Positions 2,782 through 6,413 of a DNA stretch of 64,000 nt are shown here, piece after piece (position 1 is the stretch's first letter; the number at the start of each line of letters is the position of its first letter). The notes beneath the pieces were generated by a model. The model saw only the letters and a program-made list of their open reading frames with translations, did no database searches and was not told the origin of the DNA. This stretch comes from Flavobacterium sp. KJJ (GTDB taxonomy: Bacteria > Bacteroidota > Bacteroidia > Flavobacteriales > Flavobacteriaceae): assembly GCF_000708595.2 (NCBI RefSeq), contig NZ_JARP01000006.1:186001-250000 (forward strand), given 5' to 3'. Both the position numbers and the translations under genes were made by a program.

Positions 2782-3966
2782 TTATTTGTATTTTATGTTA
2801 ATGCTAATAATATCCGAAGTCATATTAGTAGTTCTGGTATAATGCCCATAACGGAGTTCTAATGTATTCCAATGTTTAAGTCCAAAGATTCCGTTTAGAG
2901 GCGTAAATTTCATACCCATTCCAAAAAAACTGCTGTCAAACTTAGATAAATCATAATTACTGGTGTAATATTCATCAGCTGCAGTATGTTCTCCGTAAGG
3001 TTTAAAATACTTAGTTCCCGTCTGCGTATAATATCTATAAAACGGACTCACTGAAAATGCCTGGGTTAATTTCACAGGAATTTCAAGATCGGCAGTATGC
3101 GCTTTTAAGCTCCAATCGTCAGTATAATATCTGTAATAAGCACGAATAATTACATTGTCACCTAAAAAATAACTTGCCCTAATTCCCAATGGAATTTTTA
3201 ATCTGGTATCCGGCATTTTTTCTTGATGCACCGAACCATCTGCAAAATACACTCTATGAAATGGAAGGCTTAAATACCCGTTTTGGCTGATTACATCTCC
3301 TACAAGCATTACCTGAAGGTTTTTGTTTACAACCTGTGAGTAACTTAAAGTTCCTGCAAAAGTATTTCTGTTGGCGCTGCCGTAACCTTCACTTCCTGGC
3401 GGGCGAAGCTCCACGGGTTCTATTAGTTTTAGCTGATCAAGAAAGGTCTGAAATTTAGCTGTAAATTCTCCGTTTCTGTCTTTTGTTTTTTGTGAGAAAC
3501 TAATATTTCCTCCAAAAGACTGGTAGTCAAACTCCGTTGATGATGAAACTCCAATCCCTAATGTTCTTCCTTTTTCTTCATTCTCTCTTAAATAAGTCAA
3601 AGAAGGATAGAATCGATTGTCTGAAGAAGACGCAGATGAATTTGCGCTCAAATCAATCATATCTGATGATGCTGAGGTATAATGATCTATACCAGCTTCG
3701 ATGTCAAAAGTATGCTTAATTCCGGTTTCTCCGTATTTTACTAATTTAACATCAATAGTATTTGCAATATCAGTAAGATGTTCAGAACCAATGCCTCCAG
3801 TAACGGCAGAATTGTTTCCGTCCTGTTTATAATAACTCGAGACTAGATTAACTTCTTCCAATTTTAATTTTTTGCTTTTGTAACTGGTAGAATCAGTAGG
3901 AACATTTTGTGCTCTTACCTGAAATAGTGCCAATAAAGCAAACCCTGTTATGAATATTCTTTTCAT
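2782..3966 (-). CDS. DUF3570 outer-membrane beta-barrel protein
   Basis: 394 residues with a signal peptide (MKRIFITGFALLALFQVRAQ). Alternating polar/hydrophobic strands run throughout and the protein ends in an aromatic/basic strand (SINIKYK), as expected of a beta-barrel. The segments DIEAGIDHYTSASSD and RAYYRYYTDDWSLKAHT are typical of DUF3570 proteins. It is last in a minus-strand operon after thioredoxin, ApbE and DUF4266 genes; the gap to DUF4266 is 18 bases. Its function is not established. The constant partnership with a flavin transferase suggests an envelope redox role, which is inference. Confidence 0.85.
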   Translation of the reverse strand: MKRIFITGFALLALFQVRAQNVPTDSTSYKSKKLKLEEVNLVSSYYKQDGNNSAVTGGIGSEHLTDIANTIDVKLVKYGETGIKHTFDIEAGIDHYTSASSDMIDLSANSSASSSDNRFYPSLTYLRENEEKGRTLGIGVSSSTEFDYQSFGGNISFSQKTKDRNGEFTAKFQTFLDQLKLIEPVELRPPGSEGYGSANRNTFAGTLSYSQVVNKNLQVMLVGDVISQNGYLSLPFHRVYFADGSVHQEKMPDTRLKIPLGIRASYFLGDNVIIRAYYRYYTDDWSLKAHTADLEIPVKLTQAFSVSPFYRYYTQTGTKYFKPYGEHTAADEYYTSNYDLSKFDSSFFGMGMKFTPLNGIFGLKHWNTLELRYGHYTRTTNMTSDIISINIKYK

Positions 3967-3984
3967 TTTTTTATCGTATGAAAA

Positions 3985-4218
3985 TTAGTTGCATCCGCAG
4001 CCACCACCGCTTTTTCCTGAATTTGCACCGGAAGCTCCTTCACGGTAGGATTGAAAACTGAGTTCTGTCTTTTCGATTTTTCGATTAGAAAGGACCATTT
4101 CAGAATCGTTGATTTTTCCTTTCTGGTATTCTTTTACCGAAGTACAAGAGGTGAAGAGAATGGCTGTAAAAGCAATACTGCAGAACAGTACTAGATTTTT
4201 TTGCTTTGGCTTTTTCAT
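3985..4218 (-). CDS. DUF4266 small lipoprotein with GGGCGCN C-terminus
   Basis: 77 residues. The lipoprotein signal ends in TSCTS (lipid-modified Cys near residue 25). The mature peptide is only ~50 residues and ends SYREGASGANSGKSGGGCGCN. The SREG/YREG-type segment and the terminal Gly/Cys motif mark DUF4266. The start codon overlaps the ApbE stop by four bases (ATGA), indicating translational coupling. The tail has two Cys in CGC and a GAS/SGAN segment, which makes it the most obvious candidate partner or substrate of the adjacent ApbE; no flavinylation has been shown here. Confidence 0.85.
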   Translation of the reverse strand: MKKPKQKNLVLFCSIAFTAILFTSCTSVKEYQKGKINDSEMVLSNRKIEKTELSFQSYREGASGANSGKSGGGCGCN

Positions 4219-5165
4219 TTCAGGTTAATGTTTTTTGATGTGTAAATTTTATTGCTGTCATCGATAATAATACAATATAAATCAGGGATCTGATCTATTA
4301 AAAATAAGCCTGCCTTAATTCCCATAACCGCTATTGGAGTTGCCATTGCATCTGCAAATTCTGCATTAGAAGCGATAATGGTAACACTTTTAATTCCGGT
4401 TATTGGCAGCCCTGTTTTTGGGTCAATGGTATGCGAATATTTTTTGCCATTAATGGTTACGAACTTTTCATAATTGCCAGAGGTTGCTACTGCTTTATTG
4501 GATATTTCCATATACGAAAATGCACCAGTTGGAGCATCTGGATTTGCCACGCCAATAGTCCATTTTTTACCATTTGGCTGTAGTCCCCACGCACAAAGAT
4601 CTCCGCTTGCATTAATAATGCCGCTTTGAACATTATTTTTAACTAGGATTTGTTTAGCCATTTCTGCGGCATATCCTTTTCCGATACCTCCAAACCCAAT
4701 TCGCATGCCTTTTTCTTTTAGAAATACTGTAGTTTTTTCTTTGTCTAAATTGATATTTCTATAATCAATAAGATGCACCATTCTTAAAGCTGTTTCGGCA
4801 TCTGGAAGCTTGGTCATTGTTTTGTCAAAATTCCAAAGACTTTTGTCGATACTTCCGTAAGAGATATCAAATGCACCTTGTGTAATTTTCGAAATCCCGA
4901 CAGATCTTTCAATAAGATTAAAAACTTCCAGATCTACTTTTACAGGTTTAACTCCTGCATTTTCATTAATCAGGTTCGTCTGACTGTCTTCTTTATAAGT
5001 AGTCAAAAGTTTTTCAATTCGCCTTATTTCTTCAATAGCGAGATTAATATTCTCATTCCCTTTTTTCTCATTTTCATCTACCACTGTAATTGTGAAGTTG
5101 TTTCCCATGAGTTTTAGGGATTGTGAATATTTTTGTTTTTTTGATATGTTATTTTCGACTGTCAC
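4215..5165 (-). CDS. apbE: FAD:protein FMN transferase (ApbE family)
   Basis: Transfers FMN from FAD to a Ser or Thr of target proteins, using Mg2+. Family motifs are present: FDISYGSIDKSLWNF, the glycine-rich GFGGIGKGYAAEMAK, the segment GIINASGDLCAWG, and SHTIDPKTGLPITG with downstream DAMATPIAVMG. The first in-frame start is a GTG overlapping the thioredoxin gene by 17 bases. An ATG at 5108 (MGNNFTITV) is the alternative, but the residues between look family-like (KLMGNNF), so I keep the longer form. No signal peptide or lipobox is visible with either start, unlike the usual exported ApbE. Confidence 0.92.
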   Translation of the reverse strand: MTVENNISKKQKYSQSLKLMGNNFTITVVDENEKKGNENINLAIEEIRRIEKLLTTYKEDSQTNLINENAGVKPVKVDLEVFNLIERSVGISKITQGAFDISYGSIDKSLWNFDKTMTKLPDAETALRMVHLIDYRNINLDKEKTTVFLKEKGMRIGFGGIGKGYAAEMAKQILVKNNVQSGIINASGDLCAWGLQPNGKKWTIGVANPDAPTGAFSYMEISNKAVATSGNYEKFVTINGKKYSHTIDPKTGLPITGIKSVTIIASNAEFADAMATPIAVMGIKAGLFLIDQIPDLYCIIIDDSNKIYTSKNINLK

Positions 5166-5583
5166 AGATCGCTTTTATTTCGGCAGTCCATTGTTCAGGT
5201 GAGGTTTCAGGTTTTCCGTGCCAAGTTTTGATTACTTTGCCATCAGCATCTAGAAGAAGTGTTAAAGGGAAACTTCCTTCTTTGTTGTATATTTCCGCTA
5301 ATCCTTCATTTCGCTTAACTTGCTCAGGCGTTCCGATGTTTTTCTTTTTCCTTGGAAAATCAGCATTAACCAATACTAAATTTTCATTTGCCATATCTGT
5401 GAATACCTGACTTTCAAGATATTCTTTGCGCGTTACAATACAGGGTCCGCACCAGTCTGAACCAGAGAAGTTTAAAAGAATTAATTCGTGCTTTTCCTTT
5501 GCCGTTTTTTTTGCATTATTAAAGTCAGGTTCCCAATTTATTGGAAGCACCATTAATAATAGGAATAATGTAATTAGCTTCAT
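5149..5583 (-). CDS. Exported thioredoxin-fold protein (WCGPC)
   Basis: 144 residues. A short hydrophobic N-terminus (MKLITLFLLLMVLPINW) is a likely signal peptide. A thioredoxin fold follows, with active site SDWCGPC (Cys45, Cys48) and the expected cis-Pro region SFPLTLLLDADG. The C-terminus is WHGKPETSPEQWTAEIKAI. It probably acts as a periplasmic dithiol/disulfide exchanger. It is first in the minus-strand operon with apbE, DUF4266 and DUF3570. The Cys-containing DUF4266 tail is a plausible partner, by inference only. Confidence 0.9.
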   Translation of the reverse strand: MKLITLFLLLMVLPINWEPDFNNAKKTAKEKHELILLNFSGSDWCGPCIVTRKEYLESQVFTDMANENLVLVNADFPRKKKNIGTPEQVKRNEGLAEIYNKEGSFPLTLLLDADGKVIKTWHGKPETSPEQWTAEIKAICDSRK

Positions 5584-5696
5584 TTTGCAGTTTGTTTTTA
5601 GATATAACGAAATAACGAATTGTTGTGTATCTTATTTTTTTTAATCCCTTAAGATTCGATTAATTTTTTTTTAAGTCTAAAATCAATAGACTTCTT

Positions 5697-6413
5697 TTAA
5701 GTGGTCTGAACGCCAAAAGCATAGCCAACTAGTGCCGACATTGCCATAGCAAATGTGCCCCAAATACAAATACGAAATACAGCTTTTAGTGTATGTGATC
5801 CGCCAGCTTGGGCTGCTAGTATTCCGGATAATGCTAAAAAGAGTATCGAAAATCCATATTGATAAAATACCATTTGTTTTATTGGAGCAAAAATAGCGAC
5901 CAAAAGCGGCAGTAATCCTCCGATAATAAATGAAACAGCTGATGCGAAAGCCGCCATTAAAGGATTAGCCTGTGTAATTTCATTGATTCCAAGTTCATCT
6001 CTCGCATGTGCTTCGAGTGCATTATGAGCTGTTAATTCGATCGCAACTTGTTTTGCCAATTCTTTATTTAGTCCTCGCTGCACATAAATATGTGTTAACT
6101 CTTCAAGTTCCGATTCAGGCATGTTTTCAAGTTCTTCTTTCTCTCGCTTTAGATCGGCTGTTTCTACGTCAGCCTGAGAACTAACCGAAACATATTCGCC
6201 CGCAGCCATTGACAGTGCGCCTGCGACTAAACCTGCAACTGCTGCAAGTAAAATAGGCTCTCTTGTAATACTTGCCGCTGCTACTCCAATTGCTAGGCTT
6301 GTAGTAGATAAAATTCCGTCATTTGCTCCCAGCACGGCTGCTCTCAGCCAACCGCTTCTATTAATGTAATGATTTTCAGGCTCCATATTTGGGTTTATAT
6401 TAATTATATTCAT
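5697..6413 (-). CDS. VIT1/CCC1-family metal transporter
   Basis: 238 residues, an integral membrane protein of the VIT family, which moves Fe2+ or Mn2+ out of the cytoplasm. The N-terminal signature GWLRAAVLGANDGILSTTSL and the second-helix region ALSMAAGEYVSVSSQADVE are both clear. The cytoplasmic metal-binding insert rich in Glu (DLKREKEELENMPESELEEL) follows, then three further membrane helices. ATG at 6413 is used; a second Met (MEPENHY) nine codons in is an alternative. It is transcribed alone, away from the Crp/Fnr-like gene. Confidence 0.92.
   Translation of the reverse strand: MNIININPNMEPENHYINRSGWLRAAVLGANDGILSTTSLAIGVAAASITREPILLAAVAGLVAGALSMAAGEYVSVSSQADVETADLKREKEELENMPESELEELTHIYVQRGLNKELAKQVAIELTAHNALEAHARDELGINEITQANPLMAAFASAVSFIIGGLLPLLVAIFAPIKQMVFYQYGFSILFLALSGILAAQAGGSHTLKAVFRICIWGTFAMAMSALVGYAFGVQTT

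Follow-up and report, generated by a model that had tools for sequence, protein, structure and literature searches.

A thioredoxin-ApbE-DUF4266-DUF3570 operon of Flavobacterium and its proposed role as a flavin and thiol redox relay at the outer membrane

The stretch of DNA analysed here, referred to below as the window, comprises 64,000 nucleotides of Flavobacterium sp. KJJ, whose genome is 4.6 Mb in size and whose nearest named loci are those of Flavobacterium chilense and others, with 97-98% identity in DUF3570. On the minus strand of the window lies a module of four adjacent genes, in the order thioredoxin, ApbE, DUF4266, DUF3570, the products of which all score above the Pfam cut-offs. 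As originally predicted, the genes are tightly packed, with a 17-base overlap (5149-5165), an ATGA overlap (4215-4218) and an 18-base gap (3967-3984). The operon is a member of a published DUF3570/DUF4266 flavinylation system, and its flavin carrier is most likely DUF3570, a predicted outer-membrane barrel, and not the lipoprotein DUF4266. What is noteworthy is the combination of an ApbE that has no signal peptide with an exported barrel substrate, the flavinylation sites of which are probably located on an outer loop. The features of the module, all on the minus strand, are as follows.

5149..5583, minus strand: thioredoxin-like protein, 144 amino acids, with an N-terminal hydrophobic signal and a WCGPC active site
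4215..5165, minus strand: ApbE flavin transferase, 316 amino acids, GTG start, without signal peptide (PF02424, 263 bits)
3985..4218, minus strand: DUF4266 lipoprotein, 77 amino acids, with lipobox Cys25 and a C-terminal CGC (PF14086, 68 bits)
4144..4146, minus strand: codon of DUF4266 Cys25, the predicted lipidated cysteine, invariant in 41 sequences
3991..3999, minus strand: C-terminal CGC of DUF4266, residues 74-76, conserved across the family rows
2782..3966, minus strand: DUF3570, predicted outer-membrane beta-barrel and predicted ApbE substrate, 394 amino acids, with a signal peptide (PF12094, 99 bits)
3667..3678, minus strand: predicted flavinylation site 1 of DUF3570, TSAS, residues 97-100 (D94-x-x-T-S-A-S), from alignment
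3628..3639, minus strand: predicted flavinylation site 2 of DUF3570, SSAS, residues 110-113, from alignment
3625..3675, minus strand: DUF3570 loop 98-114 with both acceptor serines, predicted to be disordered and outward-facing (model, strand parity, insertions)

The four-gene module and its relatives

Among 296 genomes of the phylum, DUF4266 was found in 83, DUF3570 in 86 and ApbE in 192. Every genome with DUF4266 (83/83) also has DUF3570, and ApbE is present in 83 of the 86 genomes with DUF3570, so that the co-occurrence, which the original prediction had proposed as a check, is far above chance. ApbE went unmatched in three of the DUF3570 genomes, G181, G213 and G276, the assemblies of which consist of about 60 to 290 contigs. 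Within the neighbouring genus g12, the three families occur together in a single genome and are all missing from four. The gene order of the window is maintained in 80 named related loci, most of them from close relatives, with a few exceptions: L094 and L115 yielded no frame for DUF4266, L108 has a truncated one, and L134 runs off its contig. In L094 and L115, both from Flavobacterium, the module appears to have decayed together with the gene of a VIT1-family protein described below, the thioredoxin and VIT1 frames being shortened, and an assembly error is possible there. The rows counted here and below are loci and not genomes, and a few places are present twice, under a genome handle and as a named record.

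The window ApbE covers positions 1-265 of the 266 of the PF02424 profile. It contains the segments SGNY, SHTIDP and ADAMAT, found by eye, which we read as equivalents of the catalytic Ser, His and Asp; the function of ApbE depends on Ser, His and Asp residues, according to excerpts of a review. By its sequence, the protein is thus a member of the ApbE flavin transferase family despite the absence of a signal peptide, and cytosolic ApbEs are known. The thioredoxin matches Pfam Thioredoxin_7 with 41 bits and the NCBIfam model DsbH with 66 bits, which is under the DsbH cut-off of 190. Its relatives are uniform: in the 142 distinct thioredoxin-profile hits of 131-214 amino acids, N-terminal hydrophobicity is at least 1.6 in all 142 and at least 2.0 in 138, and CxPC is present in 141.

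The predicted flavin acceptor and the lipoprotein arm

The original prediction held that there is no known flavin mononucleotide (FMN)-binding partner for this ApbE. It was right that the operon encodes no NqrC/RnfG-like FMN-binding domain; PF04205 (FMN_bind) has 0 matches at E 0.001 in the whole window genome, and an FMN_bind partner encoded elsewhere in the genome was rejected on this ground. The second ApbE of the genome was likewise rejected as the partner, since it belongs to a PepSY/DUF2271 locus of its own. The partner puzzle is, however, answered in print, and the claim of a missing partner does not stand: the DUF3570 family, to which the last gene of the operon belongs, was experimentally flavinylated by its cognate ApbE. 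DUF3570 of Chlorobium luteolum was modified by its own ApbE at two [S/T]GA[S/T] sites upon co-expression in E. coli (Meheust et al. 2021, eLife, PMC8238504; this and the other papers cited here are quoted from excerpts of their texts). The same paper counts clusters with a linked DsbD (227 with DUF3570, 221 with DUF4266), 316 that have the same four families but no linked DsbD and are regarded there as probably the same system, and 25 clusters with VIT1. In the open-access literature searched, DUF4266 and DUF3570 are named only by this paper.

The window DUF3570 has the strict [S/T]GA[S/T] motif at neither site (0/2), and carries TSAS and SSAS at the aligned positions. D94, S98, A99 and S100 of site 1 and S111, A112 and S113 of site 2 are invariant in 58 DUF3570 sequences; across 32 diverse sequences A99 and S100 are at least 90% conserved, and site 2 is lost in some distant relatives. 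When frames under 360 amino acids and duplicates are excluded, 157 distinct DUF3570s remain, of which 83 have TSAS and SSAS, and 38 have [ST]GAS twice with no other match. Within the first 210 residues, the motif [ST][GSA]A[ST] occurs twice or more in 149 of the 157, once in 5 and not at all in 3, and the remaining ~195 residues contain 0.05 such motifs on average. The reviewed consensus is D-x-x-[S/T]-G-A-[S/T], and its Asp at -6 is found at site 1 in 135/154 and at site 2 in 24/149 DUF3570s. As judged from these alignments, the form with Ser in place of Gly is a lineage form of the predicted flavinylation site. An N-terminal hydrophobic stretch (1.6 or more) is present in 153 of the 157 proteins.

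The composition of DUF4266 was described correctly in the original prediction: it has 77 residues, and its C-terminus, with two Cys, reads REGASGANSGKSGGGCGCN. CGC is located within the last seven residues in 166 of 167 DUF4266 rows, the exception being the truncated gene of L108, and of the 142 sequences, out of 146, for which the distance from Cys25 to CGC was obtained, 118 have a distance of 49, 23 one of 52 and a single one 53. In the clade of the window, 31 columns are invariant among 41 sequences. AlphaFold2 gave a structured part for the signal helix only (mean predicted local distance difference test score, pLDDT, of 60.6), with the tail 66-77 under pLDDT 50. DUF4266 is thus predicted to be an unstructured arm of nearly fixed length that ends in CGC. 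Since the arm is conserved and nearly fixed in length and yet appears unstructured, these properties suggest a partner on which it folds. A search by sequence for solved relatives returned none that is convincing for DUF4266 (best E 0.52) or for DUF3570 (best E 0.16, a nucleoporin). We judge it likely that, as originally proposed, the two C-terminal cysteines are a partner of the thioredoxin.

ApbE without a signal peptide and the place of flavinylation

The window ApbE starts 18 residues before its conserved core, and only three more residues fit upstream in frame. Because the stop-to-stop frame is only 319 amino acids long, no signal sequence fits in frame, and a wrong start codon that hides a signal peptide was rejected for the window for the same reason. 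By a hydrophobicity test on the N-terminal extension, the signal peptide is missing in 120 of 138 cluster ApbE rows, i.e., in 79/79 of those measured from L074-L153 and in 41/59 of the others; two calls were set by hand, L165 as 'no signal' (its hydrophobic stretch lies far upstream of the core) and L067 as 'signal' (a fusion). The Chlorobium-like loci (L154-L173), which in our own reading of the family code and the SGAS sites belong to Chlorobiaceae, have a full ApbE in 19 of 20 cases, always without a signal. ApbEs encoded outside such clusters have a signal peptide, lipobox or anchor in 40 of 41 cases: 21/21 of L053 and L174-L193, scored by the test, and 19/20 of L194-L213, judged by eye. 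For those from Chlorobium-like genomes the figure is 8/9, and the ninth, L196, stands beside a DsbD-like gene near a contig end.

In a tree of 88 ApbE cores the signal state changes three times, and the signal-less groups are a Chlorobium-like clade (18 rows), the clade of the window (30 rows) and L054. It is a quick tree, the output of which warns of long branches; it used 11 of the 79 near-identical ApbEs of L074-L153 and left out the duplicates L001, L002, L017 and L169 and the truncated L134. In this thinned set 49 of 67 cluster ApbEs are without a signal and 18 have one. Export of ApbE through a frameshift or read-through fusion with the thioredoxin was rejected as a general answer, since the two genes do not keep a constant relative frame (107 adjacent pairs divide into 81, 15 and 11, and close relatives make up most of the 81). 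The absence of a signal peptide from cluster ApbEs is not discussed in the excerpts of PMC8238504, nor do these report a 16-strand model of DUF3570 with its sites at the edges of a disordered loop, or the nearly fixed length of the DUF4266 arm. Among the papers listed in searches of the open-access literature there was no sign of flavinylated barrels in the outer membrane or of flavin attachment prior to export. The C. luteolum DUF3570 was recovered mostly in the pellet and was purified in guanidine with its flavin retained (PMC8238504). As the pelleted protein was still flavinylated, it seems possible that an unfolded chain can be modified.

DUF3570 is predicted to be an outer-membrane barrel, as the original prediction had proposed. 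AlphaFold2, run with 58 sequences, gave a mean pLDDT of 82.5, a predicted template-modelling score (pTM) of 0.77 and 16 strands by our own count, in which 115-119 and 122-129 were merged and three short pieces in the loop 231-259 were excluded. VIA-align matched the model almost end to end (aligned span about 26-394) to solved barrels that include BamA (the best match, Z 21.6, root-mean-square deviation 3.5 over 279 residues), PelB (Z 19.4) and CymA (Z 17.6), and the top Foldseek matches are OccD/OmpG/AlgE barrels, which indicate 'barrel' only. No cytochrome-conduit barrel is named among the 50 VIA-align matches listed, which excludes nothing.

Residues 100-113, from the first to the second acceptor serine, are under pLDDT 50. 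Counted by strand parity from an assumed periplasmic N-terminus, the loop 98-114 is an outward one. In 32 sequences the outward loops average 13.5 residues with a length standard deviation of 5.0, the inward turns average 5.6 with 0.93, and the difference in length variability has p = 0.034; the site loop reaches up to 50 residues in relatives. In the model the flavin-site loop thus probably faces outward.

Neighbours, the proposed relay and known systems

Upstream of the module the window contains two further features.

5697..6413, minus strand: VIT1-family gene (iron/manganese transporter-like; PF01988, 228 bits), associated with the module, the linkage not being constant
5604..5665, minus strand: conserved non-coding element with AATTAATCGAATCTTAAG and TTCGTTATTTCGTTAT, between VIT1 and thioredoxin

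The VIT1-family gene lies on the same strand, 113 bases upstream of the thioredoxin gene; it is a published associate of such clusters (PMC8238504) and was missing from the original prediction. A VIT1 frame of at least 200 amino acids is present in 33 of the 80 related loci and fragments are present in 4, as counted by eye. The non-coding element contains a tandem TTCGTTAT and is common, at least partly, to the closer of 16 chosen related loci that were aligned with the window by MAFFT and judged by eye, being clearest among the closest relatives; it is possibly the module's own promoter.

In 15 of the 20 Chlorobium-like loci, ApbE is followed by a gene of DsbD size with a match to the thioredoxin profile (domains were checked for L155). 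In three loci (L049:8606-9046, L058:8792-9247 and L063:8614-9051) the gene immediately upstream of that for the thioredoxin encodes a small Rieske protein, which in L049 and L058 has an export-type N-terminus, and L067:5503-6933, inside a DUF3570/DUF4266 cluster, encodes a natural thioredoxin-ApbE fusion with one signal peptide. Both the Rieske neighbours and this fusion are consistent with a redox role. Among 124 neighbour frames from 32 loci, chosen out of 248, there are 8 response regulators, 5 VIT1, 3 Rieske, 3 CusB/HlyD and 3 cytochrome b561 proteins, and no single conserved extra partner. Two-component genes adjoin some clusters, and those at L036 best match heavy-metal models, below the cut-offs. 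Two similar secreted proteins are encoded near the two ApbE loci of the genome, at 2215-2694 of the window and at L053:214-723 (VNVNIGTPP..GP, by eye); the one in the window has no Pfam match.

We propose that the operon encodes an outer-membrane flavin/thiol redox relay in which FMN is attached before export and electrons flow from DsbD through thioredoxin and CGC to flavin, a proposal that we consider slightly more probable than its opposite. ApbE would attach FMN to S100 and S113 of DUF3570, as shown for the Chlorobium relative. Because the window ApbE has no signal peptide, this modification would take place in the cytosol, on the unfolded and unexported DUF3570, after which Sec and the beta-barrel assembly machinery (BAM) would place the barrel in the membrane with its flavins on an outward (or lumen-facing) loop. 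DsbD, of which the window genome has one full-length copy, would keep the periplasmic thioredoxin reduced, the thioredoxin would reduce the CGC of DUF4266, and the lipid-anchored DUF4266 arm would hand the electrons to the DUF3570 flavins in a manner comparable to the CXC tail of Erv2. Finally, electrons might pass from the reduced flavins to an acceptor on the cell surface, for which iron is our first guess, as in PMC8238504, because of the VIT1 link. The envelope redox module of the original prediction likely stands, with the role of flavin carrier passing from DUF4266 to DUF3570.

Several observations weigh against this proposal. Both window sites have Ser in place of the Gly of the published motif, and a Gly to Ala change in another substrate approximately halved flavinylation, according to the review; site 2 also has no Asp at -6 (Ser107 is there), although the loss of this Asp is reviewed as having a minor effect. 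The only DsbD_TM match of the genome is on another contig and is not linked to the cluster, which does not exclude membership in the published system. The Chlorobium-like clusters L163, L169 and L171 lack both DUF4266 and the small thioredoxin. They comprise a DsbD-sized gene together with DUF3570 and ApbE and retain both flavin motifs; the arm is therefore not universal. A signal peptide or a signal-bearing thioredoxin fusion is found in 18 of 138 cluster ApbE rows, so that cytosolic modification is not a family-wide rule, and the L067 fusion points to a periplasmic location of ApbE in its genome. In PMC8238504 the methods call constructs 'signal peptide-truncated' and say that the two C. luteolum genes were handled by a 'similar cloning strategy', a wording that would fit a C. 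luteolum ApbE with or without a signal peptide. The orientation of the site loop is derived from strand parity and a model built on relatives 64-98% identical, and the contrast in loop length alone is not significant (p = 0.10). Within DUF4266, the GAS serine (S63) is invariant throughout the clade of the window (41 sequences), and L137 has a DUF4266 that reads SGAS (hexamer GSSGAS).

The last two points favour what was originally predicted, namely that DUF4266 is the flavin carrier, modified by ApbE at GAS or SGAN, with DUF3570 as a passive outer-membrane partner. The segment does resemble flavinylation sites, the GAS serine is present in 147 of 167 rows (many of them near-identical, and three misread by the pattern), and DUF4266 adjoins ApbE in the window and in almost every one of the 80 loci. 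Where SGAN has its acceptor, however, 111 of the 167 rows have Asn and 25 have Ser or Thr; GAS has Glu at -3, where Ser/Thr is expected; and of the 146 distinct sequences that retain CGC, 19 have Ala, Val, Gly, Ile, Lys or Glu in place of the GAS serine, their loci mostly retaining ApbE and the DUF3570 sites. A 20th row on the list of those without this serine, L108, is the truncated gene. Moreover, it is DUF3570 that was flavinylated upon co-expression with ApbE (PMC8238504). Flavinylation of DUF4266 is therefore unlikely on sequence grounds, and we give this explanation as a whole very little credence. A stronger candidate, though still an unlikely one, is flavinylation in the periplasm: ApbE would leave the cytosol by a path that has escaped recognition, perhaps carried along by the thioredoxin, or the loop would face the periplasm, and DUF3570 would be a barrel-anchored periplasmic redox carrier. 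The signal-bearing and fused cluster ApbEs, as well as the apparent export or anchoring of 40 of 41 non-cluster ApbEs, fit this arrangement, but the three residues available upstream of the window ApbE, the variable reading phase of thioredoxin and ApbE, which leaves a frameshift fusion no general answer, and the outward parity of a site loop that tolerates large insertions do not.

The direction of electron flow and the role of the CGC arm could also be different. The DUF3570 flavins, with oxygen as acceptor, might oxidise DUF4266 and the thioredoxin and thus form a disulfide source of the sulfhydryl-oxidase kind, since Erv oxidases combine flavin with a flexible CXC shuttle (PMC4019985, PMC3509050). 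We hold this to be quite improbable, given that the best NCBIfam model of the thioredoxin is the disulfide reductase DsbH, even if below the cut-off, and that 15 of the 20 Chlorobium-like loci continue with a DsbD-like gene, DsbD being a source of reductant. CGPC is, in addition, the motif of reducing thioredoxins. Nor do we find it probable, if marginally less remote, that the CGC arm is a metal-binding tail (e.g., for iron or copper) that loads or senses metal, with the flavins reducing the metal for VIT1-linked iron handling and thiol exchange being secondary. The linkage of VIT1 in the window and in 33 of 80 related loci, the 25 clusters of PMC8238504 and the heavy-metal resemblance of the two-component neighbours of L036, which is below cut-offs, speak for such a role; VIT1, on the other hand, is not universal and is set apart in the window by the conserved promoter-like gap.

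The proposed relay may be carried further, to a haem-free outer-membrane electron conduit. In it, the unfolded barrel chain would receive two FMNs in the cytosol and take them by way of Sec and BAM to a surface loop, and electrons from DsbD and thioredoxin would reach them along the fixed-length lipoprotein arm with its CGC tip, which would extend into the barrel or even through it; we regard this as doubtful. If true, the relay would be the thiol/flavin equivalent of cytochrome conduits. If the cofactor is indeed loaded in the cytosol before export, this step needs no periplasmic flavin adenine dinucleotide (FAD), and surface flavins could sit where no periplasmic ApbE reaches. The operon is carried by many species of Flavobacterium, including a strain named F. 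johnsoniae CI04 (L085), and the question is therefore directly testable.

The closest known systems are the DUF3570/DsbD-type clusters (PMC8238504), which have the same ApbE, DUF3570, PF13899 thioredoxin and DUF4266 with a C-terminal CXC, and sometimes VIT1 nearby. The window DUF4266, with its lipobox Cys25 and terminal CGCN, agrees with the 'small, exported, CXC end' character of that family. The window differs from those clusters in its unlinked DsbD, in sites that read [ST]SAS and not [S/T]GA[S/T], and in an ApbE without a signal peptide. The other ApbE of the same genome (L053:5024-8797) is encoded with a PepSY/flavodoxin/reductase fusion and a DUF2271 protein with TGAS, a typical PepSY flavinylation locus. 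The PepSY-DUF2271-ApbE system (PMC8238504) resembles the window operon in that a substrate without FMN_bind is flavinylated by a dedicated ApbE, but in L053 the ApbE has a signal peptide, DUF2271 keeps TGAS and the neighbouring membrane protein is the PepSY fusion. The cytosolic ApbE of Klebsiella, which serves a soluble fumarate reductase (PMC12052999), is likewise without a signal peptide; its substrate is cytosolic, whereas the predicted substrate here is exported. The Pfam hits of the four proteins of the operon, taken up to E 0.001, include no Erv family, and the likeness to the thiol oxidases Erv1 and Erv2, in which a flexible CXC tail relays electrons between thiols and the flavin site (PMC4019985, PMC3509050), is one of working only. 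In contrast to these enzymes, the flavin and the shuttle of the Flavobacterium operon would be on separate proteins, and the FMN is predicted to be covalently bound.

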